The notes under the pieces are model-generated. The model did not search any database, had not been told where the DNA came from, and saw only the letters and a program-made list of their open reading frames with translations. This document shows, piece after piece, positions 1 through 23,655 of a stretch of DNA of 64,000 nucleotides (the first letter of the stretch is position 1; every line of letters starts with the position of its first letter). Source of the stretch: Lysobacterales bacterium (GTDB lineage: Bacteria; Pseudomonadota; Gammaproteobacteria; Xanthomonadales; Rhodanobacteraceae); the NCBI GenBank assembly GCA_021324945.1, contig JAJPID010000060.1, forward strand, positions 50,339-114,338. Reading direction: 5' to 3'. The translations under genes were made by a program, and so were the position numbers.

Positions 1-1499
1 ACGGCATCGAACAATTGCAGGCCCTTGGCGATTTCCTCTTTGGTAAAGCCTTCCGCCAACAGCGCGGCTTCCGGCAGCATTATCGGCCTCTTGCAGTCGT
101 GCAGGCGGCGTGCCAAACGCTGTGCGATCACCAAGGTCACACTGGACGTGATGTTGTACGGTGCGATGCCCATGTTCATCAGACGCGCAATGGTCTGCGC
201 CGCATCGTTGGTGTGCAGTGTGGACAGCACCATGTGGCCGGTCTGCGCGGCCTTGATCGCGATTTCGGCGGTTTCCAGATCGCGGATCTCACCGACCATG
301 ATCACGTCCGGGTCCTGACGCAGGAAAGCGCGCAAGGCGGCGGCGAAGGTCATGCCGCGTTTGACGTTCTGCGCCACCTGGTTGATGCCCGAGACGCGGA
401 TTTCGACCGGGTCTTCAACCGTGGAGATGTTTCGGCCGACATCGTTCAGGATGTTCAGCGCGGTATAGAGCGAAACGGTTTTGCCCGAGCCAGTGGGACC
501 GGTCACCAGCACCATGCCGTAAGGCTTGTGGATGGCATTGAGGAACAGTTCCTTCTGATCTTCCTCGTAGCCGAGTTTGTCGATCCCCAGCTTGGCCGCG
601 GCGGGATCGAGGATACGCAACACCACTTTTTCACCAAACAGCGTCGGCAGCGTGCTGACGCGGAAGTCGATCGACTTGCCCTTGGAAAGGTTCAGTTTGA
701 TGCGACCATCCTGAGGCACGCGCCGCTCGGCGATGTCCAATCCCGACATGACCTTCAGGCGCGAGGCGATGCGTGGCGCCAGCTTGATGGGTGGGGAGGC
801 GACCGCGCGCAGGATGCCGTCCAGACGTACGCGCACGCGGTAGTGGCCTTCGTAAGGTTCGAAATGGATATCCGAGGCGCCGCGTTTGATGGCGTCCACC
901 AGGATCTTGTTGACGAACCGCACGACTGGGGCATCTTCGCCGCCGACTGCATCGAAACCGGTTTCGCCATCTTCGCCGCTTTCGCCCAGCTCGAGGTTCT
1001 CAAGACCTTCCGCATCGTCCAGGTCGGGCATTGCGGCGTTTTGGCTGGACAACGCCTGATCGATCGTGCGCTTCAGCAGTTCCGGCTCGATCAGGATCGG
1101 CTCGACCGCGCTATTGGAGTGAAACTTGATCTCATCGAGCGCCGCGGAATTGGTCGGATCGGCGATGCCGACGAACAGCCGATTGCCGCGCTTGAACAGC
1201 GGCAGCGCGGTGTGCTTGTTGATCAGCTCCTCGCTGACTACCTTCAGCGGCAATTGCGAGAAATCCAGCGCATTGGCGTCCAGCAACGGCACGCCGAATT
1301 CGGCAGAAACCGCTTGCGCCACGCGCTTGCCTTCGACCAAGCCGTTGTCCACCAGCCAAGTCGCCAGCGGCGTCTTGTTGCGGAGCGAATCCTCGACCGC
1401 CTGGCGCGCATCGGCTTCCGACAGCGCGCCCTCGATCGCCAGCCGCCGGGCGATGCCGGTGAGTCCCGCAAACGGAGTCGGATTCAACTGGGTTGCCAT
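1..1499 (-). CDS. pilB: type IV pilus assembly ATPase PilB (partial, runs off left edge)
   Basis: Minus-strand translation from ATG at 1499: MATQLNPTPFAGLTGIARRLAIEGALSEADARQAVEDS...; Walker A VTGPTGSGKT, ...QDPDVIMVGEIRD..., AQTGHMVLSTLHTND typical of PilB/GspE. Confidence 0.95.
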   Translation of the reverse strand, partial: MATQLNPTPFAGLTGIARRLAIEGALSEADARQAVEDSLRNKTPLATWLVDNGLVEGKRVAQAVSAEFGVPLLDANALDFSQLPLKVVSEELINKHTALPLFKRGNRLFVGIADPTNSAALDEIKFHSNSAVEPILIEPELLKRTIDQALSSQNAAMPDLDDAEGLENLELGESGEDGETGFDAVGGEDAPVVRFVNKILVDAIKRGASDIHFEPYEGHYRVRVRLDGILRAVASPPIKLAPRIASRLKVMSGLDIAERRVPQDGRIKLNLSKGKSIDFRVSTLPTLFGEKVVLRILDPAAAKLGIDKLGYEEDQKELFLNAIHKPYGMVLVTGPTGSGKTVSLYTALNILNDVGRNISTVEDPVEIRVSGINQVAQNVKRGMTFAAALRAFLRQDPDVIMVGEIRDLETAEIAIKAAQTGHMVLSTLHTNDAAQTIARLMNMGIAPYNITSSVTLVIAQRLARRLHDCKRPIMLPEAALLAEGFTKEEIAKGLQLFDA

Positions 1500-2935: not shown

Positions 2936-3014
2936 GGTGCTCCAACGGGCATGCCGGCCAGCCGCGAGTGCCGCTATGATCCACGGCGCGAGTGCGTTGC
3001 GAAAGGAGGGGAGC

Positions 3015-3863
3015 TTGCTCAGCATCATCCTGCCGGCCAAGAACGAAGCCGCCGCGCTCGCGGCGCTGCTGCCGGCGCTACGAGCGGCGCAGCCGGATGC
3101 CGAAATCATCATCGTGGATGATGGCTCCACCGATGACACGCGCGCGCTGTGCGCGCGACACGATGTGATTTGTTTGTCCTCGCCCTATTCAATGGGTAAC
3201 GGGGCGGCGATCAAGCGCGGTGCGCGTGCGGCGAAAGGCGACGTATTGGTGTTCATGGATGCCGACGGCCAGCACCACCCGGTCGACATCGCGCGTCTGC
3301 TGACCAAACTGGAAGAAGGCTACGACATGGTGGTGGGCGCACGCGCCTGGGCGGGCCAGGCCGGCGTGGGACGTGGCGTGGCCAACACGATCTACAACAA
3401 GCTCGCAAGCTGGATGACCGGTTTCAATGTGGCCGACCTCACCTCCGGTTTCCGCGCCGCACGCGCGGACAAGTTCCGCGAATTCCTGCATCTGTTGCCG
3501 AACGGATTTTCCTATCCGACCACCAGCACAATGGCATTTTTCCGCAGCGCGTACGCCGTGGCCTATGTGCCTATCCACGCCGCACAGCGCGTGGGCAAGA
3601 GCCACATCCGCCCGGTGCGCGACGGCGTGCGTTTCCTACTGATCATCTTCAAGATCGCCACGCTTTACTCCCCGCTGAAATTGTTCGTTCCCGCCGGTGC
3701 GTTTTTCTTCCTGCTTGGCCTTGGCTATTACTGCTACACCTTCGTGACCCTTCACCGCTTCAGCAACATGAGCGCGCTGCTGTTATCCGCCGCCGTGATC
3801 ATTTTCCTGATCGGGTTGATTTCCGAGCAGATCACATCGTTGACCTACCGACACGATGACTGA
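3015..3863 (+). CDS. GT2 family glycosyltransferase, polyprenyl-phosphate-sugar synthase-like (DPM1/GtrB-like), C-terminal TM segments
   Basis: TTG start after AAAGGAGGGG RBS; LLSIILPAKNEAAALAALLPAL...IIIVDDGSTDDT...DADGQHHP; two hydrophobic segments at C-terminus. Confidence 0.85.
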   Translation: MLSIILPAKNEAAALAALLPALRAAQPDAEIIIVDDGSTDDTRALCARHDVICLSSPYSMGNGAAIKRGARAAKGDVLVFMDADGQHHPVDIARLLTKLEEGYDMVVGARAWAGQAGVGRGVANTIYNKLASWMTGFNVADLTSGFRAARADKFREFLHLLPNGFSYPTTSTMAFFRSAYAVAYVPIHAAQRVGKSHIRPVRDGVRFLLIIFKIATLYSPLKLFVPAGAFFFLLGLGYYCYTFVTLHRFSNMSALLLSAAVIIFLIGLISEQITSLTYRHDD

Positions 3864-9274: not shown

Positions 9275-10212
9275 TGAGCCGAGCCCTTATCGTCGGCCAT
9301 ACCGGTCAGGATGGGCGTATCCTGTGGGGGCAGCTCGCCGCGCAAGGGTTCGTGTTGAGCGGGGTTTCGCGATCGCGTCTGGACGGTCTGGATGATACGA
9401 CGCCCATCGATATCAACGACCCGGCGGCTGTTCGGCATTTGGTCGAAACTCTGCGTCCAGATCAAATCTACTTTCTTTGCGCACATCACCACAGTTCGCA
9501 AGACCTCGATTCGAACGCTGCCAAAGTATGGGGTCCGAGCTGGGCCACGCACGTGCATGCATTCGCCAATTTTTTGCAGGCAGCCATAGAGAGCACTCCT
9601 GCGGCACGCATCTTTTATGCGTCCTCGTCCCGCATCTTCGGTTCGGCTCTTGCAAGCCCGCAGAACGAGGACACCCCATTCAAGCCGGAATGCATATACG
9701 GGGTCACCAAGGCTTCGGCGATGATGCTCGCGAGCTTTTACCGCAAGATACACGGGTTACATGTTTCCTGCGGCATCCTCTTCAATCATGAATCGCGATT
9801 GCGACCGCCACAGTTCATCTCGCGTCGCATCGTGGATGGTCTTCTCGCAATAAAAAAACATGAAGCGGATGTGCTGGAAATCGGTAATCTAGATGCCCGC
9901 GTGGATTGGGGTTACGCGCCTGACTATACGCGCGCGATGCAGTTGATTCTGGAAGTTGCACCTCCCGGGGATTACGTCGTGGCAACCGGAAAGCTCCACA
10001 GCGTAGGTGAAATGGTCGCTGCCGCGGCTTCGCGTATCGGAGTGGATATCACCGGTCGTATCAAGGAAACTGGCGGTATCATCCAGCGGCAATCACAGAT
10101 GCTTTGCGGGGACGCCTCGAAACTGCGCCAGGCCACCGGTTGGCGGCCGAGCGTCGATTTCACGGCGATGGTCCACAGGCTGGTCGAAGAAGCGTTGCGC
10201 GCAGGTCAGTAG
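9271..10212 (+). CDS. NAD-dependent epimerase/dehydratase, GDP-mannose 4,6-dehydratase-like paralog
   Basis: MSRALIVGHTGQDGRILWGQLAAQGF...[46 protein letters not shown]; same family layout as gmd at 13.4 kb. Confidence 0.88.
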   Translation: MMSRALIVGHTGQDGRILWGQLAAQGFVLSGVSRSRLDGLDDTTPIDINDPAAVRHLVETLRPDQIYFLCAHHHSSQDLDSNAAKVWGPSWATHVHAFANFLQAAIESTPAARIFYASSSRIFGSALASPQNEDTPFKPECIYGVTKASAMMLASFYRKIHGLHVSCGILFNHESRLRPPQFISRRIVDGLLAIKKHEADVLEIGNLDARVDWGYAPDYTRAMQLILEVAPPGDYVVATGKLHSVGEMVAAAASRIGVDITGRIKETGGIIQRQSQMLCGDASKLRQATGWRPSVDFTAMVHRLVEEALRAGQ

Positions 10213-11576
10213 CGTGTAGTCGCAATTCTCTCGAATACGCGGTGTCCGAAACACGTGAACGCGATTGCATTGACGATGCACCATGCAAGAGCGGTAACCC
10301 ACGGAACACCGTCGATGCCGATGCGCGAAAGCACCATTGCTTTTCCTGTGAAACAAATCGTGGCGAAGATAATCGACGTGATCATTTGGAATCGCATCAC
10401 GCTGGCGGCATTCAACAGTGTTGACAGTGCGGTCGCGCCAGCTTCGACGATGCACCACATGACAAATCCCGCCAACAGGGCGCGGTCGACGGGTGCAAGG
10501 TGATGGACCCAGAGGCGCGAGATGAGCGGGAAGCACAGGGCAAAGATCATTGCGCATGTTGCGGCAAAGCCAATCGCAGTAGCGCATGAGCGACGCAAAG
10601 TTCGCATGACCCAGGCATGATCGCCGATCGCCAGCGCCTGCCGGTAGATCGGCCACAGTGGTGTCCAAACCAGCGAAATGCAGAGCGGAATCATCGAAAA
10701 CAAGCGCTGCACGACCGCATAAGTTCCTGCTTCCGCTGCTCCGCGCAACGCCGAAACAAGCGGCAGATCCGCTGAAAATGCCAAGGCTGCCGCCAATTGC
10801 AAGATGAAGAACAAGAAACCTTCGCGCCGGATGCGCCCTGCAATTTCTTTGCGACGCGCTCGCGCAGACCTCGCATCGACACGCGATGCTGGATAGTCGC
10901 GCCAAAGAGTCAAGGTGTTACCCGCTGCGCCTATCAAGGGCGTTGCCACCGCCGCTGCGGTGAGAGTTGGCAGCGAAGCACCAAAAAGCGCCAGCATGAC
11001 CACGAGCACCGCGGCAAGCACTTGACCTGCCGCCTGCCAGCGAAATGCGCGCTCACCCCGGCCAAGTCCGAGCTGGGCTCGCATGGCCAGGTTCAGCGGG
11101 ACCGCAATCGCAATCGAATACAGTACCGCCGCAATGGCGAGTCGGCTCTCCCAGGCCGCAGTTGTCGGCAAGCCCAGCAAACGATTCCATGGAACAAGCG
11201 GCAGCAGAATTGTTGCGATGATGGCGATTGCCGCCGCGATGCCCAACAAGACGCGCCAGCTTTCGTGCAGCACAGCCGCCACGACCGAGTGTTCGTTCCT
11301 CCCGTGTGCGGCGGCAACCAAATTCATAGTGCCGTTGCCGAAACCGAAGTCGAGGAATCCGGCAAAGGTGACCAGCGAAACCAGTGTGGCCCAGGCGCCG
11401 AATTGTGCCTGACCAAGCGCGCGCAGAACGAAGGGCACCGACAGCAACAGGTTCGCCCCTGCACAGAGCTTTGCGGTCAGACCCCAAGCACTCGCGCTGA
11501 GCACGCTCCGACCGCGCGTACCGATCAGTTTGCGCCAGCCGTTCGCCTGCGAACGCGGCGTTTGGCTATCCATCAA
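10206..11576 (-). CDS. oligosaccharide flippase / Wzx-type polysaccharide exporter
   Basis: RSVLSASAWGLTAKLCAGANLLLSVPFVLRALGQAQFGAWATLVSLVTFAGFLDFGFGNGTMNLVAAAHGRNE; polytopic. Confidence 0.88.
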   Translation of the reverse strand: MMDSQTPRSQANGWRKLIGTRGRSVLSASAWGLTAKLCAGANLLLSVPFVLRALGQAQFGAWATLVSLVTFAGFLDFGFGNGTMNLVAAAHGRNEHSVVAAVLHESWRVLLGIAAAIAIIATILLPLVPWNRLLGLPTTAAWESRLAIAAVLYSIAIAVPLNLAMRAQLGLGRGERAFRWQAAGQVLAAVLVVMLALFGASLPTLTAAAVATPLIGAAGNTLTLWRDYPASRVDARSARARRKEIAGRIRREGFLFFILQLAAALAFSADLPLVSALRGAAEAGTYAVVQRLFSMIPLCISLVWTPLWPIYRQALAIGDHAWVMRTLRRSCATAIGFAATCAMIFALCFPLISRLWVHHLAPVDRALLAGFVMWCIVEAGATALSTLLNAASVMRFQMITSIIFATICFTGKAMVLSRIGIDGVPWVTALAWCIVNAIAFTCFGHRVFERIATTRY

Positions 11577-12487
11577 AAAATCTCGTTGTCGCCGCTCACC
11601 ACGTTCACGACAGGCAGCCCTCGAATCAGTCGTTGCCGCTCTGGATAGGTCAGATAATCAAGTCTTCCGTTCGCGTCGCGGCTCTCGCGAAAGGCAGGTT
11701 TCACGAATTTCGCGTTGGCTAAAATGTCTCTCCATTCCGATTTGACCAAGTCATTGCGTACGTAATAGGCGTTGTTGCCCGCGCCGTTGCAGCCGAGGAA
11801 GGTGTAGCCCTTCTTTTGGGCGAGGAATGAAAGTGCCGGAAGCGAGGCGCCAAAATACTGGCCTGAATGATGCGCGTCGAACCTGCCAAAGTCGGGTTTG
11901 TACGGGATGGTGACAGCACGTTCGTCACCCAACAGCGCGTTGTATTCGACGATGACAATGGCTGGCGAGGTACAACGGATCGCGTCCCACAACCAATAGT
12001 CGTTGCCATCCACATCGATATGTAGCAGGCCCAGCGGCTCACCATCCAGCCACGCAGCGATGAAAGGATCCACGTTTTCGCGTGTTACGAAATGAGCTTT
12101 GGCCGTCAGATCGTAACGCCAGAACCAATTCCTGCGCTTGAGCCTGGCGATGTTCGCGGCAGAGCCATCCATTACCAAACCGCGCCAGTTATTGTTGATC
12201 ATCAAAAAGCGCGTGTTGGATTCAGAATAGTCCTCTACGCCGAATTCCACGAACCGCTTGGGCAAATCCGGAAACTGTCGAACCAACCATTGAATGATGC
12301 CATCATCGCCGAATTGCGAAAACACGCGAAACTCCACATCCTGCAAAGAACGCACGGCGTGCTTGCGTGCCATCAGTTCAGAGAGTGCCGCGCCGGCCAG
12401 CTCCAGTATCCGCTCATCGCCCTCGCGCCCCTGCACCCATGCTCGCGTGGAGCGATACCACTCTCTCGCGCGTTCGAAGCTCATCAT
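11573..12487 (-). CDS. FkbM-like methyltransferase-fold protein of unknown function
   Basis: [19 protein letters not shown]...RFVEFGVEDYSESNTRFLMINNNWRGLVMDGSAANI...GLLHIDVDGNDYWLWDAI; start overlaps the fcl stop (TAATG). Confidence 0.6.
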   Translation of the reverse strand: MMSFERAREWYRSTRAWVQGREGDERILELAGAALSELMARKHAVRSLQDVEFRVFSQFGDDGIIQWLVRQFPDLPKRFVEFGVEDYSESNTRFLMINNNWRGLVMDGSAANIARLKRRNWFWRYDLTAKAHFVTRENVDPFIAAWLDGEPLGLLHIDVDGNDYWLWDAIRCTSPAIVIVEYNALLGDERAVTIPYKPDFGRFDAHHSGQYFGASLPALSFLAQKKGYTFLGCNGAGNNAYYVRNDLVKSEWRDILANAKFVKPAFRESRDANGRLDYLTYPERQRLIRGLPVVNVVSGDNEIF

Positions 12488-13437
12488 TAAGCGCAGACCT
12501 GCTCGGCGGCGTGTCCGGAAGTTTGGAACCAGCAATACGAATCCTTGAGCCCGGCTTCGAGTCCGATGCGAGGCACCCAGCCCAGCGCGTCCATCCGCGA
12601 GGTTTCCAGCCTTTTGCGCGGCGTGCCATCCGGTTTGGAAGGATCAAATGACAGCACGCCTTCGAATCCGGTGGTCTTTGCGATCAACTTGGCAAGTTCA
12701 CGGATGCTCACTTCATGTCCGGAACCGATATTGATCGGTTCGGCTTCATCGTAGTTGCGCATGAGAAAGACCAGCGCATCGGCCAGGTCATCCACGTGCA
12801 GAAACTCGCGCTGGGGCGTGCCGGTTCCCCAGATCACCACTTCAGGTGCGCCCGAAACTTTGGCCTCATGGAATCGGCGGATCAATGCAGCGATCACATG
12901 TGAATTCTGCGGATCGAAGTTATCGCCGGGCCCGTAAAGATTCGTCGGCATCGCGCAAATCGCATTGAAGCCGTATTGACGACGATAAGCCTGACACATT
13001 TTCAGGCCGGCGATCTTGGCGATGGCGTAGGCTTCGTTGGTGATCTCGAGGGACCCCGTCAGAATATATTCTTCCTTGATCGGCTGCGGGCAATCACGCG
13101 GATAAATGCATGACGAACCAAGAAACAAGAGCTTCTTGGTGCCGTGTTTCCACGCGTTGTGAATCACATTGCCCTGAATGGCCAGATTTTGCTGGATGAA
13201 GTCGGCAGGGTAGGTGCTGTTGGCATGGATACCGCCGACTTTCGCTGCCGCCAGGAACACGTACTCTGGTTTTTCATCCGCGAAGAAGTGTTCGACATCG
13301 GCTTGCCGTGTCAGATCAAGCTCAGCGTGCGTGCGCAACAGCAGGTTGTCGGCGCCTTCGGCGGTCAGTCTGTGCACGATGGCGCTGCCCACGAGTCCGC
13401 GGTGACCGGCAACGAAGATGCGGGCGTGGATATCCAT
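12487..13437 (-). CDS. fcl: GDP-L-fucose synthase
   Basis: [24 protein letters not shown]...[53 protein letters not shown]. Confidence 0.96.
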
Positions 13438-13440
13438 GCG

Positions 13441-14550
13441 TTATTCGTGGCGATTCGGCGCGGTAAAGCCGGCGCCGCTGACGAGCGCGTCGCGTCGTGC
13501 AATGGCCATATCGGCGGTCATCATCTCGCGCACCAGTTGCTCGAAATCACATCGCGGCGACCAGCCGAGTTTCTGCCGCGCCTTGCTTGCGTCACCCAGC
13601 AGTGTATCCACCTCCGCCGGACGGAAATAACGGGGATCGATGGCCACGATCTTCTGACCCGGTCTCGCGGCGCACCCTGGGAGTGCGTCGCTCACCACGC
13701 CGTATTGTTGGGTGCCCGATCCTTTCCACTCGATCTTGAGGCCGATCACGGCCGCGGATTGCTCAACGAAGTCACGCACTGAATGCTGCATGCCGGTGGC
13801 GATCACGAAATCCTCCGGCTGCTCCTGCTGCAACATCAGCCATTGCGCCTCGACAAAGTCGCGCGCGTGGCCCCAGTCGCGGCGTGCGTCGAGATTTCCA
13901 AGATAGAGGCAATCCTGCAGCCCGACGTGAATACGCGATAGCGCGCGGGTGATCTTGCGCGTCACAAAGGTCTCACCGCGTATCGGCGATTCATGGTTGA
14001 ACAGGATGCCGTTGCACGCGTACATGCCGTAAGACTCGCGGTAGTTCACCGTGATCCAGTAGGCATAGAGCTTGGCCACGCCGTAGGGCGAACGCGGATA
14101 GAACGGCGTACTCTCGACCTGTGGCGTCTCCTGGACCTCGCCGTAGAGTTCGGAAGTCGATGCCTGATAGAAGCGCGTCTTTTTTTCCAGCCCCAGGATG
14201 CGCAGGGCTTCCAGTATGCGCAGCGTTCCCAGCGCATCCGCATTGGCGGTGTATTCCGGGGTTTCGAAGGAAACCTGCACGTGGCTCTGCGCGCCGAGAT
14301 TGTAGATTTCGTCCGGCTGCACCTGCTGCACGATGCGGATCAGATTGGTGCTGTCGGTCAGGTCGCCATAATGCAGAAACAAGCGACGCTCAGAATCGTG
14401 CGGGTCCTGGTAAAGGTGGTCGATGCGCTCGGTGTTGAAGGACGAGGAGCGCCGCTTGATGCCATGCACCTCGTAACCTTTGCCGAGCAGGAATTCGGCC
14501 AAGTAGGCGCCGTCCTGTCCGGTGATTCCAGTTATCAAGGCACGTTTCAT
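13441..14550 (-). CDS. gmd: GDP-mannose 4,6-dehydratase
   Basis: [47 protein letters not shown]...[20 protein letters not shown]. Confidence 0.97.
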
Positions 14551-14613: not shown

Positions 14614-16632
14614 TCACTGCACGGGCGAATGGGCACCTTGCTCGGCCTGCTGCTGCAGCTCGGCGATCTGTGCATCCAGCCGGCCGAAGCTGTCCATGCG
14701 GCGCAAGGCATCAATTTCCCGCACTGCGTCTTGAGTCATGCCATTGATCGCCAGCCAGTGCGCCAACTGCACGCGGTAAGCCGTTTCACCCGGTGCCCTC
14801 TTCACGGCTTGGCGCATCGCCTGGATCGCGAGTTTGTCGTCGCGAAGAAGGTCGTTGGCGAAATCCGCGTAAGCCGCATATAGACGCGCGATCGGCGCGG
14901 GCCGCGACAGCGCGGCCTCGAAGGCTTTTTGCAAGGCGGAAATATCGAAACTGCAATCCAGCTTGGCGCGGCATTGCGTCAACGATATCAAAGCAGAAAT
15001 ATCTTCTTGAGTCGTCGGCTGGTTACGAAGCTTTGCAGTCATTTCCCGCCACAATGCCTGATCGTCTCTATGGCGATCGTGATCGATGATCATGATCTGT
15101 GCTTGCTCAGGCAAGGTGGAGGCGCCGGGAATGGCCGCTGCCTGACGCAGATAGAATTTTGCCTTCTCCAGCGCGGGGCCAGGCTGGTAGTCCGACGCAA
15201 TGATCAGCAACCGCCCGGCTTCGTAATTGGCGCGCGACGAATCGGGGTGGCGATTCGCTTCCGCTAAAGCAAGGCGCAAGGGATTAGACCAGTCTTGCGC
15301 GCGCAAATAGGTGACTCCAGCGAACCACATCAGCAGCAGGGCAACCAATGCGCCCCGTATGATCGGTAGCGTGATCGTCCTGCGCAGACCCGCCAGCAAT
15401 GAAAAGAGTGTCAGTAACGCGCCGATGGAGGCGAAGTAGTTGCGGTGCTCATACACCAGTTCGAGCGGGATGAACGTGGCAGTCAACAACTGCGCTGCGA
15501 AAAACCACAGGATGCCGAGGGCGACCAGCGGAAGGCGGTCGCGTAACCAGATCGCGAGGGCAATCAGCGAAGAGAGAAAAAGAATCGCCGGCAATGTCGT
15601 CGGCGGGGTGAGAAGTCCCTTCGAAATAGGCATTTCATCGTGATATACACTCAATGTGAATGGATCAGGCAAGACGATCCAACGCAGATAGCTCACAAGC
15701 ACGCGCGCTTCGGTCAGCAGCCGCTCGTCCAACGTGAAGCTGCGTCCGTCCCACGCAGCCGGTTCCAGCGAACGCGGTAGCAACCAGGCAAGGCCCAATA
15801 CGGCGGGTAGCAGCAAAGTGAAGACGAACAACCAGACGATCCGTTTGTCTACAGCAGCCGTACTGGCCGATGACCTGCCGTGCATTTCCGTTTTGGTAGT
15901 GGGTTCGTGATCAGGGAATTCTTCATTGCCTGCGTGCTGACGAAAGCGAAATAACACCCACTCCACCAGAAACGCATAAACCGGCAACAATACGGCCGAC
16001 TCCTTCGAGAGCAAACCGATTGCGGTGCCGAACACGAGGCCGGACGACGCGATGACAAAACCGGTTCGTGCGTCGCGCTGATGCACTGCACTCATCATTC
16101 GCCGACGTCCCAGCAGATATGCCCACAATCCCGCTAGCACGAACACTTGGCAGAGGCTTTCCATCCTCTGCACTACATACAGCACCGCCATTACATTGAT
16201 GGGCAGCAACAGCCATCCCGCTGCGACTATCAACGCCAGCCGTTGCGCTGCGGTGTCTTCGATCATTGTTTTGCCGCACCGCGTATTCCATGCGCGAAAC
16301 ATTTCGCGCAGCATGAAGTACAGCAACAGGCCGTTGAGCAAATGAATTGCCAGATTGGTGGCTTTCATCGGCCAAGGGTTTTCGCCCGAAATAAACCAAT
16401 TCAGGGCAAAGGTCAGGGAAGCCAATGGGCGTTGAAATTCACTGGCCGGTGATGACCATGCCGCATTTGCCCAGTTCGCCAGCGTCGAATGCGTAATGTG
16501 CAGTTCCGCGTTGTCGACAATATTGGGAAAATCATCGAAAACGTAGCCGCCGGAAAGACCGGGCCAGTAAACGATGATTGTGAGGGCCAACGATGCGCCG
16601 AGCGCCAGTAGAGAAAGCCTTTTAGCTTGCAT
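14614..16632 (-). CDS. polytopic membrane protein with C-terminal TPR-like region, TMTC/GT-C-like
   Basis: MQAKRLSLLALGASLALTIIVYWPGLSGGYVFDDFPNIVDNAELH...PLELVYEHRNYFASIG...; ORF start trimmed to ATG at 16632. Confidence 0.75.
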   Translation of the reverse strand: MQAKRLSLLALGASLALTIIVYWPGLSGGYVFDDFPNIVDNAELHITHSTLANWANAAWSSPASEFQRPLASLTFALNWFISGENPWPMKATNLAIHLLNGLLLYFMLREMFRAWNTRCGKTMIEDTAAQRLALIVAAGWLLLPINVMAVLYVVQRMESLCQVFVLAGLWAYLLGRRRMMSAVHQRDARTGFVIASSGLVFGTAIGLLSKESAVLLPVYAFLVEWVLFRFRQHAGNEEFPDHEPTTKTEMHGRSSASTAAVDKRIVWLFVFTLLLPAVLGLAWLLPRSLEPAAWDGRSFTLDERLLTEARVLVSYLRWIVLPDPFTLSVYHDEMPISKGLLTPPTTLPAILFLSSLIALAIWLRDRLPLVALGILWFFAAQLLTATFIPLELVYEHRNYFASIGALLTLFSLLAGLRRTITLPIIRGALVALLLMWFAGVTYLRAQDWSNPLRLALAEANRHPDSSRANYEAGRLLIIASDYQPGPALEKAKFYLRQAAAIPGASTLPEQAQIMIIDHDRHRDDQALWREMTAKLRNQPTTQEDISALISLTQCRAKLDCSFDISALQKAFEAALSRPAPIARLYAAYADFANDLLRDDKLAIQAMRQAVKRAPGETAYRVQLAHWLAINGMTQDAVREIDALRRMDSFGRLDAQIAELQQQAEQGAHSPVQ

Positions 16633-16672
16633 TGTATTTAATGTGCAGGAAGCTGCCGAAAGACTAACCGGT

Positions 16673-18745
16673 TCAACGCCCGATTGCTTGGGTTTTTGCG
16701 TGTCGCCGAGCATGCTTGACTGGGGACATGGCGTCGGTTTGAAGCGTTTTTCGCAGCCGCAAGGCTTCGCATTCCCAATAATGCTGTCGCTCGAGAATCC
16801 ATGCATGTATCCGCGGCATGCCGAAGGGCGCCGGTTTCGATGGCGGCAGGGTACGCCAGAAATTCAGGTGTGCGAGCCCCTGAAGCGGATAACCCTCCGC
16901 GCCGAGCGTCGCTGCCTGCTCGAGCGCAGCATCGGGCTGAGGATCGAGAATCAACGCTCGATCGAAGGCAGACAAGGCCTGATCAGGTCGGTGTTGGGCA
17001 AGATACAAAAGACCCTGAAGATGCTCGATGTCCTGTTGCCGTCCGGGTATCGAGCGCCAGTGCGGGTTACTCCGCATCGCATCCAGCATCGCTTGCAGAG
17101 CGGCGAAATCGAGGCCGCGGCACTCCTTACGCGTTGCCATGTCCAGCGCCGTGTCGAACCATTTGAACATCAGTTCGCCACCCACTCGGCTGGTCATCAG
17201 CGAATGATCGACGGAGTGCAGAGTCTCAGGACGCAAGTCGCCCAGACGGCACTCTGCGCCGACGAGATTGACGGGGATCTGCAGATCGTCCGGATGCGAC
17301 GGCAACGCATTGAGCAGCCGCGCTGCCGCCAGATGTGGGCGACCATGAGCCAGATCGTATTGCGCGGCACTGGCCTGTGCGCGCGCCGATCCGGGGTTGA
17401 ACGCCGCCCACTTTTGCGCTTGCGTGTAGCCATTGCCCCATGATGTCGCGCGTTCATGCGTGAGCATTCCCAGCATGACGAGTATGGCCAAAGCCATGCT
17501 AGGGCCGACCCAGCGCAAAGAACTCCGCGCGGTCAGGACAATGCCAACCGGCCAGAACATCAGCATTGCCGGCAGATAATTGCGGTGTTCGTAGTACAGC
17601 TCCAGCGGAATCCATGTGCTTTCCAGCAGTTGACCCGCAAAATAGAACAGCAACGCCAATGCGACGGCCGGGTATTTTTTTCGCAAAGCCAAGCCGGCAG
17701 CGATCAAGACGAAGATCCCCAGCATGCAGGGCCCAGTCGTCGGAGGATGCAACCATCCTCTTGAAACCACAAAACCGTCGGTGAACAAGCCGAGCGAGTG
17801 TGCGCGCGGTACCCACAATAAACCGAGGTAATCCAGCAATACGCGCGGTTCGGTCAGCAACCTTTGGCCGACGCTCCAATTGCGGACTTCCGGCGCGGCA
17901 TGAATCGCCACGGGAAGTGCTCCCAGCAGGCCCAATGCAAGCAGGAGACTCGGCACGATCAACAACAACACGAGCATCCGTCGGTAGAGCGGTTTGACGG
18001 CGTCGGCGCGTATCGGCCGATACGGCGATAGCACGATCCACTCGACGAGCAGGAGCAACAAGGGCAGCAGAACGCCGTTGGCCTTGCACAAGGTGGCCAG
18101 CAACGTGCAGCCCAATATGCTTGCCGTCATTCCGGTCACGGCCCGCTTTGGGTGATTCGACTCGAGCCATTCCCTTGAGCGTGTCCAGCCGAGCAAGGCG
18201 ATCAGCACGAAAGTCGCCGGCAGCATCGCCTCACGTTGCACCACATAGAGCGTGGTGGAAACAAACAGCGGATGCATCAGCCACGCGCCCGCTCCAAACA
18301 GCGCGGCTGCACGCGCATGATCCGGCTTCAGACCCACCGCAATGCCCAGGCGTAACAAGACTGCGCACAGCAATGCGCCGTTCAACAGGTGCAGCAACAG
18401 GTTCGTGACCTTGAAAGAATACGCATTCGCGGGCCAGTCTCGTGCATCGAGCAGAAAGCTGGCGAGGGTCAATGGCCGCCCGGTTGGATCGGCGTCTCCA
18501 GAGGTGAGATAGCGGGCGAGCGCCGCCAGATTGTCTATGGGACCCGTGGCACCGATCGCTGGCAGGTTACCGAAGTCGTCGAACAGGAAATCTCCGGCCA
18601 AGCCCGGGCGGTAAACATGCCATGCCGCCAATAACAGAACGGCAAGCGCCACAACGTAGAGAATCGCCGCCGATGGCCGCTTGATCCCACGATTTGCTCG
18701 CGCCGCTGTCATGCTGACTGGAGGGGAGGCCGACATTCGCGTCAA
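16673..18745 (-). CDS. polytopic membrane protein with C-terminal TPR-like region, TMTC/GT-C-like (paralog of the adjacent gene)
   Basis: AILYVVALAVLLLAAWHVYRPGLAGDFLFDDFGNL...PLELYYEHRNYLPAML...LQGLLYLAQHRPDQALSAFDRALILDPQPDAALEQAATL; start may be ATG at 18712. Confidence 0.77.
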   Translation of the reverse strand: MTRMSASPPVSMTAARANRGIKRPSAAILYVVALAVLLLAAWHVYRPGLAGDFLFDDFGNLPAIGATGPIDNLAALARYLTSGDADPTGRPLTLASFLLDARDWPANAYSFKVTNLLLHLLNGALLCAVLLRLGIAVGLKPDHARAAALFGAGAWLMHPLFVSTTLYVVQREAMLPATFVLIALLGWTRSREWLESNHPKRAVTGMTASILGCTLLATLCKANGVLLPLLLLLVEWIVLSPYRPIRADAVKPLYRRMLVLLLIVPSLLLALGLLGALPVAIHAAPEVRNWSVGQRLLTEPRVLLDYLGLLWVPRAHSLGLFTDGFVVSRGWLHPPTTGPCMLGIFVLIAAGLALRKKYPAVALALLFYFAGQLLESTWIPLELYYEHRNYLPAMLMFWPVGIVLTARSSLRWVGPSMALAILVMLGMLTHERATSWGNGYTQAQKWAAFNPGSARAQASAAQYDLAHGRPHLAAARLLNALPSHPDDLQIPVNLVGAECRLGDLRPETLHSVDHSLMTSRVGGELMFKWFDTALDMATRKECRGLDFAALQAMLDAMRSNPHWRSIPGRQQDIEHLQGLLYLAQHRPDQALSAFDRALILDPQPDAALEQAATLGAEGYPLQGLAHLNFWRTLPPSKPAPFGMPRIHAWILERQHYWECEALRLRKTLQTDAMSPVKHARRHAKTQAIGR

Positions 18746-18775
18746 GCATAAAGCGGTTTGCGGCTCGACTCAGAT

Positions 18776-18805
18776 AAAAAGAAGGGCCGCATGGAGCGGC
18801 CCTTC
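18776..18805 (-). terminator. Rho-independent terminator of pilin gene
   Basis: Perfect 10-bp stem GAAGGGCCGC-(5 nt)-GCGGCCCTTC followed on the minus strand by TTTTTATC, 27 nt past the pilin stop. Confidence 0.93.
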
Positions 18806-18831
18806 TCTTCAACCAAACTGCAAGGTATCGA

Positions 18832-19278
18832 TCAACGGCAGGCCGAGGGCAAGTACTTTGACGGCACCGGATTGGAGGAGCCGGCTTTGCAGCGGAACTG
18901 CGTGCTGCCCTGATTCGTGGTGGCCGACAGGACGATCGTGTCGCTGTTGATTTTGGTGTTGGCTTTGTACGGCGAGGCAGAGCTGTAGGTCACGGTGATG
19001 AGACCGGACGTGATGGCCACACCACTGACGTAATTACCGGTGATCGAGCCGGAGGCCGCAACGCCTGCCGATCCATTGTTCGTCGGAAAGCGACCGTTGT
19101 TGCTGTAGAACTCGGCGATAGCCGTCTTGGAGCCGTCCGCCAGCGACAGGCCTTCGGACACCTGCGAACGGATGACGTAATCCTGGTACGCCGGAATCGC
19201 GATCGCGGCCAGGATGGCGATGATCGCGACCACGATCATCAGTTCGATCAGCGTAAAACCTTTTTGGAACGTTTTCAT
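18832..19278 (-). CDS. pilA: type IV major pilin (PilA-like), copy 1
   Basis: [43 protein letters not shown]... class III signal peptide; C-terminal cysteine pair, ends ...KYLPSACR. Confidence 0.97.
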
Positions 19279-19581: not shown

Positions 19582-20007
19582 TCAGCGGCAGGATGACGGC
19601 AAATACTTGGACTTCACCGTACCGGCGCATTTCCACACGATACTGCCCGCGGTGGTGGTCGGCGAGAGCGTCACGTTCGCGGTTTTGATGGCCGGGTTGG
19701 CCTTCGGTTGTGCATAGGCCACCGTGATCTTCCCGGCCGCCACTGTGATCGAGGAAACATAATTACCCGCGATCGAGGTCGGAGTAGGCAGGCCAGCTGA
19801 ATTGTTGCCTGGAGGATACCTACCGTTATTGGCGACGAAGTCCCAGACCGCGCTTTTGACTCCGTCGGCCAAGCCGATGCCTTCCGACACCTGCGAACGG
19901 ATCACGTAATCCTGGTACGCGGGAATCGCGAGCGCCGCCAGGATGGCGATGATCGCGATTACAATCATCAGTTCGATCAGCGTGAAACCGCCCTGCAAGG
20001 CGCGCAT
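19582..20007 (-). CDS. type IV major pilin (PilA-like), copy 2
   Basis: [49 protein letters not shown]...; C-terminal cysteine pair, ends ...KYLPSSCR. Confidence 0.96.
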   Translation of the reverse strand: MRALQGGFTLIELMIVIAIIAILAALAIPAYQDYVIRSQVSEGIGLADGVKSAVWDFVANNGRYPPGNNSAGLPTPTSIAGNYVSSITVAAGKITVAYAQPKANPAIKTANVTLSPTTTAGSIVWKCAGTVKSKYLPSSCR

Positions 20008-20060
20008 GGAAAACTCCCCTGTTCCTGACGCGTTCGATGCGATTGTCTGCGAATGTCACA

Positions 20061-20075
20061 GCAGGGAACGTGCCA
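20061..20075 (-). promoter_or_regulatory. sigma-54 promoter upstream of pilin copy 2
   Basis: Minus strand TGGCAC-GTTCC-CTGC, GG-N10-GC spacing, ~54 nt upstream of the ATG. Confidence 0.85.
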
Positions 20076-20166
20076 AGTTCAGGACCGGCGTGAACCGGGT
20101 CACGTTTCGGGTTTCTGGCACAATGGCGCGTTTCAAGCGGCCGATGGCCGCCAGGGAACCGATTGG

Positions 20167-21222
20167 ATGAAAACCCTGCTGGTCACCGGCGGCGCCGGTT
20201 TCATCGGCGGCAATTTCGTATTGCAGGCGGTGGCGGACGGATTGACGGTGGTCAATCTGGACAAGCTGACCTACGCCGGCAATCTCGATACGTTGAAGTC
20301 GCTGGAGCGTGACGGTCATCACATTTTCGTGCACGGCGACATCGGCGATCGCGCACTCGTTTCGAAGCTGCTGGTCGAACACCGGCCGGATGCGATCGTC
20401 AATTTCGCCGCCGAATCGCACGTCGACCGCTCGATCGATGGTCCGGCTGCCTTCATCGAGACCAACGTGGTCGGCACGCTATCGTTGCTGGAATGCGCGC
20501 GGAATTACTGGAAATCGCTGGATTGCGGCGGGCGCGATGCGTTCCGCCTCCTGCATGTTTCCACCGACGAGGTGTACGGCTCGCTGGGCGCCACCGGCAA
20601 ATTCACCGAAGAGACGCCGTATGCGCCGAACTCGCCGTATTCGGCCAGCAAGGCCGCGAGCGATCACCTGGTGCGCGCGTTTCATCACACCTACGGCCTG
20701 CCGGTGCTGACGACCAATTGTTCGAACAATTACGGGCCCTATCAGTTTCCGGAGAAGTTGATCCCGCTGACCATCGCCAAGGCGCTGGCCGGCGAGAAGT
20801 TGCCGGTTTACGGCGACGGCAAGAACGTGCGCGACTGGTTGTACGTGCTGGATCACTGCGCAGCCATCCGCCGCGTGCTGGAAGCGGGCCGCGTGGGCGA
20901 AACCTACAACGTCGGCGGCAATGCCGAGCGCGAGAACATCCATGTCGTGCGCACAATTTGCAAACTCCTGGACGAACGCGCGCCCTTGCCGGAGGGTCGC
21001 GCGCACGAAACGCTGATTGAATTCGTCAAGGATCGCCCCGGCCACGACCGACGTTACGCGATCGATTTCTCCAAGTTGCAGCGCGAGCTGGGTTGGCAAC
21101 CGTCGGAGACTTTTGAGAGCGGCATCGCGCGCACGGTGGATTGGTATCTCGGCAATCAGGATTGGGTGAAGCGCGTGCTGGATGGGAGTTACCGCCTGGA
21201 ACGCATCGGAGCGGCGGCGTGA
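20167..21222 (+). CDS. rmlB: dTDP-glucose 4,6-dehydratase
   Basis: [22 protein letters not shown]...[13 protein letters not shown]...[42 protein letters not shown]. Confidence 0.97.
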
Positions 21223-22106
21223 CCACGAAGAAGGGAATCATCCTCGCAGGCGGTTCTGGCACGCGCCTGTACCCGGTGACGCAGGCGATCAGCAAGCAAT
21301 TGCTGCCGGTGTACGACAAGCCGATGATCTACTACCCGCTCTCGGTGCTGATGCTGGCCGGCATCCGCGAGGTATTGGTGATCAATACACCGCACGAACA
21401 GGTGCTGTTCAAGAATCTGTTGGGCGACGGTTCGCGCTGGGGTATCAAGATCGAGTACGCGGTGCAGCCCGCGCCGGAAGGGTTGGCGCAGGCGTTCCTG
21501 ATCGGCCGCGATTTCATCGCCGGACAATCCAGTTGTCTGATCCTGGGCGACAACATCTTCTACGGCCACGGTCTGACCGAGCTGCTGCAACGCGCGGCCT
21601 CGCGCACACGTGGCGCGACGGTGTTCGGTTACTGGGTGCGCGATCCGGAGCGTTACGGCGTGGCGCAATTCGATGACTTCGGCCGCGTGATCGGACTGGA
21701 AGAAAAACCGGCCAAACCCAAATCGAATTACGCGGTCACCGGCTTGTATTTCTACGACGAACGCGTGTGCGATTTTGCCGCACAGTTGAAGCCATCCGCG
21801 CGCGGCGAACTGGAGATTACAGATCTCAATCGCTGCTATCTGAACGACGGTTCGCTGATGCTGGAACAACTCGGCCGCGGCTACGCGTGGCTGGACACCG
21901 GCACGCACGAATCGATGATGGATGCTGGCAATTACATCGCCACGGTGGAGAACCGGCAGGGATTGAAAGTGTGCTGCCCGGAAGAGGTCGCTTATCTGAA
22001 CGGATGGATCGACGCGGATCAGGTGCGCGAACTGGCCAAGCCGCTTGCCAAAACGGGCTACGGACAATATCTGCTGCAACTGATCGAGCAAGGCGTTGCG
22101 AAATGA
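21219..22106 (+). CDS. rmlA: glucose-1-phosphate thymidylyltransferase
   Basis: GTG start overlapping rmlB stop; [54 protein letters not shown]. Confidence 0.97.
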
Positions 22107-22675
22107 CTGTGCCGCAACTGAAACGCATCGATACGGAATTGCCTGGTTGCTGCATCGTGGAACCGGTGGTGTTCGGCGACGCGCGCGGATTCTTCTACGA
22201 GACTTTCAACGCGGAGAAATACGCGGGCATCGGCATCGAGGCGCGCTTCGTGCAGTCCAATGTCTCCCGCTCGATGAAGGGCGTGCTGCGGGGCCTGCAC
22301 TATCAGTGGCCGAGGCCGCAAGGCAAGCTGGTCGGCGTGCTGGATGGCGAGGTGTACGACGTGGCGGTGGATATCCGCCGCGGCTCGCCGACCTTCGGTC
22401 GCTGGACAGCAGCCATGCTGACTGCCGACAACAAGCGCCAGTTCTGGATACCCGAAGGGTTCGCGCACGGCTTCTGCGTGGTCAGCGATTACGCGACATT
22501 TGTCTATCAATGCACCGCGGTATACGACCGCGCCGCAGATGCGGGCCTGCGCTGGAACGATGCGAGTCTCGCGATCGACTGGCCGGTGGCCGAGCCGCTG
22601 CTCTCCGACAAGGATCGGGTCGCGCCATTTCTTTGCGAAGTGCCTGCCGACAGATTGCCTTTGTACGACCCATGA
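22103..22675 (+). CDS. rmlC: dTDP-4-dehydrorhamnose 3,5-epimerase
   Basis: [68 protein letters not shown]. Confidence 0.96.
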
Positions 22676-23655
22676 GCGTCGCGTGCATTCTGCTGCTGGG
22701 CGCGAATGGCCAAGTCGGCCACGCGCTGCGGTTCGCGTTGCGCAACACCGCGAGCGAACTGAGGCCGGTCTTTCCGCGAAGAACCGCCGCACCGCATAAC
22801 GGTCTGATCTGTGCCACCCGCGACGGCAAGCTCGATGGCACAGAATGCGAGCGCATCGATCTTACCGATCTCGAGGGCCTGCGCGCGAAACTGGATCGCA
22901 TCGACCCCGATCTGATCGTCAACGCCGCGGCTTACACCGCGGTCGATCGCGCGGAGGACGAGCCGGATCTCGCGATGCGCGTCAACGCGCAAGCCGTCGG
23001 CGTGTTGGGCGAATGGGCGGCGCGGCACGACGCGCGCGTGCTGCATTACTCCACCGATTATGTTTTCGACGGCAAAGCGAAAAGCCCTTATCGCGAAGAC
23101 GATACGCCACATCCGCTTGGCGCATACGGCCGTTCCAAACTCGCGGGCGAATTGGCCCTGCGTGCCAGCGGTTGTTCGCACCTGATCCTGCGCACGGCCT
23201 GGGTGTACGCACCGCGCGGACACAATTTCCTGCGTACGATGTTGCGCTTGGCCGGCGAGCGCGGCACTTTGCGCGTAGTGGATGATCAAATCGGCGCGCC
23301 CACTCCAGCCGAGTTAATCGCGCGCGTCACCGCGCAAATCATCCCGCGCTGGTTCAACGTCGATCACGGAGACATGACCGAACACTCGCTGGATGGCGTG
23401 TATCACCTGACCAGCACCGGCGAAACGAGCTGGTGCGAATTCGCGCGAGCCATTTTCGTGCGTGCGCAGCATGCCGGCTTGCTCGCGCGCGTGCCGCAAG
23501 TCGTCGCGATCAAGACCGCGGAATATCCGACCCGAGCGCAGCGTCCGGCTTACTCCGTGCTCGACACCACGCGTCTGCGCGAAACCTTCGGCGTGACGCC
23601 GCAAGACTGGCGCGAAGGGCTGGGTGGCGTTTTCCAAGATCTGGCCGCCGGTTGA
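22672..23655 (+). CDS. rmlD: dTDP-4-dehydrorhamnose reductase
   Basis: [20 protein letters not shown]...DLIVNAAAYTAVDRAEDEPDLAMRVNAQAVGVL...HYSTDYVFDG. Confidence 0.95.
   Translation: MSVACILLLGANGQVGHALRFALRNTASELRPVFPRRTAAPHNGLICATRDGKLDGTECERIDLTDLEGLRAKLDRIDPDLIVNAAAYTAVDRAEDEPDLAMRVNAQAVGVLGEWAARHDARVLHYSTDYVFDGKAKSPYREDDTPHPLGAYGRSKLAGELALRASGCSHLILRTAWVYAPRGHNFLRTMLRLAGERGTLRVVDDQIGAPTPAELIARVTAQIIPRWFNVDHGDMTEHSLDGVYHLTSTGETSWCEFARAIFVRAQHAGLLARVPQVVAIKTAEYPTRAQRPAYSVLDTTRLRETFGVTPQDWREGLGGVFQDLAAG

Follow-up and report, generated by a model that had tools for sequence, protein, structure and literature searches.

The locus considered here raises the question of what two large membrane proteins do directly behind two type IV pilin genes. 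It lies in a stretch of 64,000 nucleotides from a Lysobacterales bacterium (contig JAJPID010000060.1), hereafter the window, in which the genes of these proteins, P2 and then P1, stand directly downstream of the two pilins. Few systems of pilin glycosylation have been described in detail (PglL, TfpO and TfpW); in Pseudomonas the modification blocks pilus phages. We propose that P1 and P2 are probably inner-membrane pilin O-glycosyltransferases of the glycosyltransferase C (GT-C) type, related to TfpW and supplied by a lipid-linked donor. The proposal is based on gene order, residue conservation, homology to TfpW, co-occurrence with a gene resembling those of sugar-lipid synthases, and predicted architecture. 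The genes at its center are the following.

14614 to 16632, minus strand: P1, putative GT-C protein with tetratricopeptide repeats (TPR), about 672 amino acids (aa), motifs FDDF, QRME, KES, YHDE and YEHRNY
16673 to 18745, minus strand: P2, putative GT-C/TPR protein, up to 690 aa, motifs FDDF, QREA, KAN, FTDG and YEHRNY
18832 to 19278, minus strand: type IV pilin 1 (PF00114)
19582 to 20007, minus strand: type IV pilin 2 (PF00114)

A sequence-only reading of the window had described two adjacent paralogs immediately downstream of the pilins, and this is borne out: both open reading frames are present, P1 and P2 share 33% identity over 485 residues (E = 1e-36), and the two pilins match PF00114 at E = 1e-22 and 1e-26. 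P2 may start at a TTG at 18745 (690 aa) or at an ATG at 18712 (679 aa). The longest frame of P1 (14614-16806, minus strand) runs into P2, and an alignment with 24 relatives favors an internal ATG at 16632; with this start, about 40 bp probably separate P1 from P2. The motif pairs quoted in the same reading, GGYVFDDFPNI/GDFLFDDFGNL and VYEHRNYFAS/YYEHRNYLPA, are exact, and the DD pair and the EHRNY block within them are near-invariant in 160 relatives. Counted over these relatives, in P2 numbering, D56 is kept in 159 of 159, D57 in 158 of 159 and R388 of EHRNY in 160 of 160; R90, H119, Q170, R171, K221 and R295 are also invariant, and D323, E382, E386 and Y390 nearly so. Judged from these alignments, the conservation of the DD pair and of EHRNY is far above chance. 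The two proteins also represent distinct types, since the clade containing P2 combines QREA with KAN (49 REA/KAN copies) and the P1 type combines QRME with KE(T/S). The residue that follows the invariant lysine (160 of 160) is accordingly E in 98 relatives (P1 type) and A in 51 (P2 type). Within the presumed active site an acidic residue appears to have changed place between the two types, which suggests that they may differ in donor or in metal geometry. The idea that P2 is a dead enzyme was set aside, because all its other invariant residues are kept.

The AlphaFold2 models of the two proteins reach a mean predicted local distance difference test score of 90 for P2, from a 40-sequence alignment, and of 88 for P1. 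As read from helix positions, the P2 model has 11 transmembrane (TM) helices, the tenth of them (TM10) helical only in part, with basic loops on the cytoplasmic side and a tail of helical repeats outside; a positive-inside reading of this model places the first loop with the DD pair, the other motifs and the TPR tail on the extracytoplasmic side. The C-terminal half had been called TPR-like, and TPR proteins are indeed the best structural matches of the models, but the part in question amounts to a third of the chain (about 250 of 680 residues). The Pfam TPR matches of both proteins fall below the curated cut-offs, and Pfam and NCBIfam together give only sub-threshold TPRs. A sequence search of the PDB returned nothing relevant for P1 or P2, and a profile search returned TPR proteins only.

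The arrangement seen in the window recurs in other genomes. A first scan of one genome per species returned 29 loci, most of which share the order pilin-(pilin)-P2-P1. The P1/P2 family is present, often in two copies, in 162 of the 299 genomes of the taxonomic order. Of 399 genomes drawn across the phylum 33 gave a match, generic GT-C/TPR proteins accounting for the weaker ones, and relatives are also scattered in other lineages, including Pseudomonas. With pilins recognized by a motif rule and not by a hidden Markov model, the nearest upstream same-strand feature of 189 long copies is a pilin in 111 and another copy in 64, and neither in 14, some of which lie at contig ends. Copies that reach about 180 bits or more against the domain profile are mostly pilin-linked, other lineages included, while those below 100 bits mostly are not, the PA7 gene at 50 bits being an exception. 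In the two Pseudomonas genomes examined (loci L157 and L158) a true family member lies next to pilB/pilC/pilD, in the same pilA slot as tfpW. Searches of plasmids with P2 and of phages with P1 returned no copies. At L157, L158 and the Pseudomonas locus L143, the last being a contig fragment without a pilin, the occupant of the pilA slot is a type of accessory gene apparently distinct from tfpW, with its own lipid-sugar synthase-like gene. In addition, a second, distant GT-C/TPR-like family occurs near the same pilin loci (L010:3531-5405, L018:321-4210, L019:1587-3434, L066:15143-17080 and L073:1318-4464).

A further gene accompanies the enzymes with great regularity, and in the window it is the divergent neighbor of pilB.

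2976 to 3863, plus strand: polyprenyl-phosphate-sugar synthase-like family 2 glycosyltransferase (GT2) of the AglJ/ArnC/DPMS type, frame open from 2820, start at 2976 inferred
27 to 1463, minus strand: pilB, aligned part (type IV pilus assembly ATPase), 57% identity to PA7 PilB, E = 7e-173

The GT2 has its best match in AglJ and would be the maker of the lipid-linked donor. At L157 and L158 it stands directly after the enzyme, the window homologue being 62% identical; many single-enzyme loci likewise have it as the gene that follows the enzyme directly, and others have it at a distance of a few kb. Within the taxonomic family of the window it is present in 70 of 70 enzyme carriers and in 0 of 3 non-carriers, and these three, which lack both enzyme and GT2, still have pilins. 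In a second genome set 39 of the 42 carriers have it and none of the 38 non-carriers does, so that overall 109 of the 112 carriers tested have the GT2, against 0 of 41 non-carriers. In 67 of the 70 carriers of the taxonomic family the GT2 and the enzyme are at most 25 kb apart, and the co-occurrence recurs in separate families as well as within one genus.

TfpW modifies its pilin and is the pilin glycosyltransferase of P. aeruginosa group IV or P. paraeruginosa (PA7, Pa5196) (PMC12369383, PMC11841053). In PA7 it was assigned by position, between pilA, itself next to pilB, pilC and pilD, and a gene for a TfpX-like protein of 245 aa, TfpX of PA7 having 244 aa (PMC11841053). Like P1 and P2, TfpW is encoded directly downstream of a pilin gene and is polytopic (641 aa), and its translation contains DD, RPL and KE motifs. 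It matches the P1/P2 family at a profile E = 6.7e-14, with hhalign values of 97.5% and 97.3%. It is nevertheless very distant, has no Pfam TPR match in place of the TPR tail of P1 and P2, and lacks the tandem pairing that is frequent in their family.

Several observations weigh against a role of P1 and P2 as pilin glycosyltransferases. With about 50 bits TfpW comes no closer to the family than generic GT-C/TPR proteins, which score 45-99 bits, and consequently it anchors the fold class and the plausibility of the proposal, not orthology, and homology alone does not prove a shared function. PA7 is also without an AglJ/DPMS-like GT2; it has its own D-arabinofuranose (D-Araf) gene set (PMC12369383), D-Araf being the sugar that TfpW adds to its pilin. 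No GT-C model of Pfam or NCBIfam matches P1 or P2. In whole-chain Foldseek searches TPR proteins rank first for both models, P1 has no GT-C match in the top 50, and for P2 the yeast oligosaccharyltransferase STT3 appears ninth as a weak match and the only one of GT-C type noted (TM-score about 0.3, root-mean-square deviation 12 Å); the GT-C fold is left unconfirmed by Foldseek because the TPR tail dominates and the superposition is poor. P2-type enzymes lack the glutamate of the KE motif. As for the GT2, the Fisher p = 4e-34 of its co-occurrence with the enzyme is overstated, because the genomes, being related, are no independent samples and the presence or absence of the enzyme partly guided the choice of the sets. 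Three carriers (G174, G259 and G313) have no GT2, and in the window it lies 10.8 kb from the enzymes, within a surface-polysaccharide-like cluster. At L116 (G174) and L113 (G259) the enzyme was seen inside the core pil gene region; L144 is the locus of G313. Nevertheless, the earlier suggestion that P1 and P2 are putative pilin O-glycosyltransferases is well supported by near-universal pilin adjacency, TfpW homology, invariant residues and GT2 co-occurrence.

Resemblance to TMTC1-4 (GT105) had also been put forward. These eukaryotic O-mannosyltransferases have an 11-TM N-terminal part and C-terminal TPRs (PMC7801869), an architecture also predicted for P1 and P2; their ligand-site motifs, and prokaryotic TMTC-like proteins, are given in the same paper. 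The resemblance extends to the architecture and to several motifs, since the DD pair (M1), the RP of M2 without HKSY and the lysine of KE (M4) are shared in corresponding loops, and the RxD motif is partial in the P1/P2 family. It breaks down at other positions. In an alignment to TMTC made by eye, the DW of loop EL4 is replaced by an aspartate (157 of 160) with H, N, Y or T as the usual residue before it, reading HD/TD in P1 and P2, the ERxxY of loop EL5 is replaced by EHRNY with its arginine displaced by one, and in place of KE the P2 type reads KA. Likewise, DUF1736 (PF08409) has no match in P1, P2 or 40 relatives; a PF08409 scan of 200 genomes of the phylum gave no match either, and is uninformative on absence because its controls were silent too. 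With DUF1736, DW and ERxxY failing, the likeness would be one of analogy and not of membership. Three-component systems of periplasmic glycosylation, of the GtrABS type or with GT136 (PMC11127046), likewise join a GT-C enzyme to a flippase and a synthase of lipid-phosphate sugars, but they glycosylate O antigens, whereas the acceptor gene linked to P1 and P2 is a pilin. TfpO/PilO and PglL are pilin O-glycosylation systems as well, and tfpO is also found downstream of pilA; no Wzy_C or PglL model of Pfam or NCBIfam matches P1 or P2, and the one Wzy_C protein of the genome is encoded elsewhere.

Between the GT2 and P1 the window holds flippase, glycosyltransferase, methyltransferase and sugar-nucleotide genes, two of the last directly downstream of P1 (12487-14550, minus strand).

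10206 to 11576, minus strand: Wzx-type flippase (Polysacc_synt), by domain match
12487 to 13437, minus strand: epimerase/reductase, a sugar-nucleotide gene
13441 to 14550, minus strand: GDP-mannose 4,6-dehydratase, a sugar-nucleotide gene

From the evidence above we infer the activity of P1 and P2, the donor and its flippase, the sites modified, the topology in vivo and the role of the TPR tail. In the cytoplasm the AglJ/DPMS-like GT2 would charge undecaprenyl phosphate with a sugar, which products of the neighboring cluster may extend. A flippase would then carry the lipid-linked sugar to the periplasm; PF03706 membrane proteins, which recur beside the GT2, and Wzx-type flippases are candidates, and in the window the donor is possibly flipped by the protein encoded at 10206-11576. 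P1 and P2 would bind the lipid phosphate and the sugar through the invariant DD, RP, QR, K, D and E-H-R-N-Y residues, their periplasmic TPR tail would engage the pilin, and one sugar or an oligosaccharide would be attached to pilin Ser/Thr before assembly.

How P1 and P2 share this work may be read in more than one way. One enzyme per pilin had been suggested, with the co-occurrence of gene numbers as a check, and counts from 78 loci of at least 12 kb each give pilin-to-enzyme numbers of 2:2 (33), 2:1 (21), 1:1 (16), 1:2 (4) and others (4). Enzyme number correlates with pilin number (odds ratio 6.3, Fisher p = 0.003, the relatives not being independent), and the numbers are equal in 50 of the 78 loci. 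A tendency is thus retained, but no rule, and a strict correspondence was not adopted. The two enzymes might instead act in series on one pilin, initiating and extending, or on different sites. The different residues of their presumed catalytic sites (RME/KE versus REA/KA), the joint occurrence of both types at 25 loci of at least 12 kb against one such locus with the P2 type alone, and the loci with unequal numbers argue for this, whereas the correlation of gene numbers and the separate pilin-enzyme pairs at L026 and L071 argue against it; we place its chance somewhat short of even. A slightly less probable alternative, which we entertain only tentatively, is that P1 and P2 are oligosaccharyltransferases: an AglJ-like start would be completed to an oligosaccharide by the cluster, flipped by Wzx and transferred en bloc to the pilin, as in the archaeal AglJ-AglB transfer of N-glycans. 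The match of the GT2 to AglJ, the genes between GT2 and P1, the presence of STT3 among the fold matches of P2 and the recurrence of flippase, GT4 and methyltransferase genes at related loci are in its favor. Few genes are added elsewhere, however (at L157 and L158 the enzyme, the GT2, an Epimerase_2 protein and a PF03706 protein), and the cluster of the window may make another surface polysaccharide. The broader proposal of a distinct pilus O-oligosaccharyltransferase class, in which a TMTC-like GT-C/TPR enzyme is joined by a dedicated AglJ-type starter on polyprenyl monophosphate and an exchangeable pilB-pilA glycan cassette, lineages swapping glycans and keeping transferase and starter, appears rather unlikely.

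The resemblance of the window cluster to a polysaccharide locus would also fit if P1 and P2 acted on a different surface glycan or on proteins other than pilin, their position beside the pilins reflecting a shared locus for surface structures. Adjacency to the pilins and the same-strand order behind them are maintained across distant lineages, though, with different genes in the remainder of the cluster, and we regard this explanation as improbable. It is highly improbable that P1 and P2 are non-enzymatic pilin accessory proteins similar to TfpY-like assembly factors: genes of the TfpX/TfpY type do share the position downstream of a pilin gene (PMC11841053), but the invariant polar and charged residues in predicted extracytoplasmic loops and the strict pairing with a lipid-sugar synthase-like gene are against it. 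Glycosylation of the neighboring pilin remains the function that we favor for P1 and P2.

The gap between pilin 1 and P2 contains one further element.

18775 to 18811, minus strand: intrinsic-terminator-like hairpin with a 16 bp stem, a 5 nt loop and a T run at the 3' arm

This hairpin has a fold z of -3.67, and a pattern scan for terminators left it unlisted. A similar terminator has been reported behind pilA in further species that have accessory genes for their pilins (PMC11841053). If the hairpin between pilin 1 and P2 attenuates read-through, enzyme expression would stay far below pilin expression. Elsewhere in the neighborhood, a 320 aa cluster protein (11573-12535, minus strand) has no Pfam or NCBIfam match, and genes of dTDP-rhamnose type (nucleotidyl transferase, dehydratase and RmlD; 20053-23655, plus strand) were noted in divergent orientation from the pilins.

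Pilin glycosylation by GT-C enzymes is already known, but the P1/P2 family was not found described in the open-access papers searched: these hold no description of pilin-linked GT-C/TPR proteins in the order, nor of a bacterial TMTC function, subscription papers being outside this scope and an earlier description possible. If the proposal is correct, pilus glycosylation in most Rhodanobacteraceae, many other Lysobacterales and some Pseudomonas would follow a lipid-linked route, the parts of which, acceptor, transferases, starter enzyme and flippase candidates, would now be named. The near one-to-one pairing of the P1/P2 family with a putative sugar-lipid synthase makes this pathway directly testable. 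Genes that family libraries see only as encoding TPR proteins would also gain a function, and the TMTC-like architecture a bacterial model with a known, neighboring acceptor.

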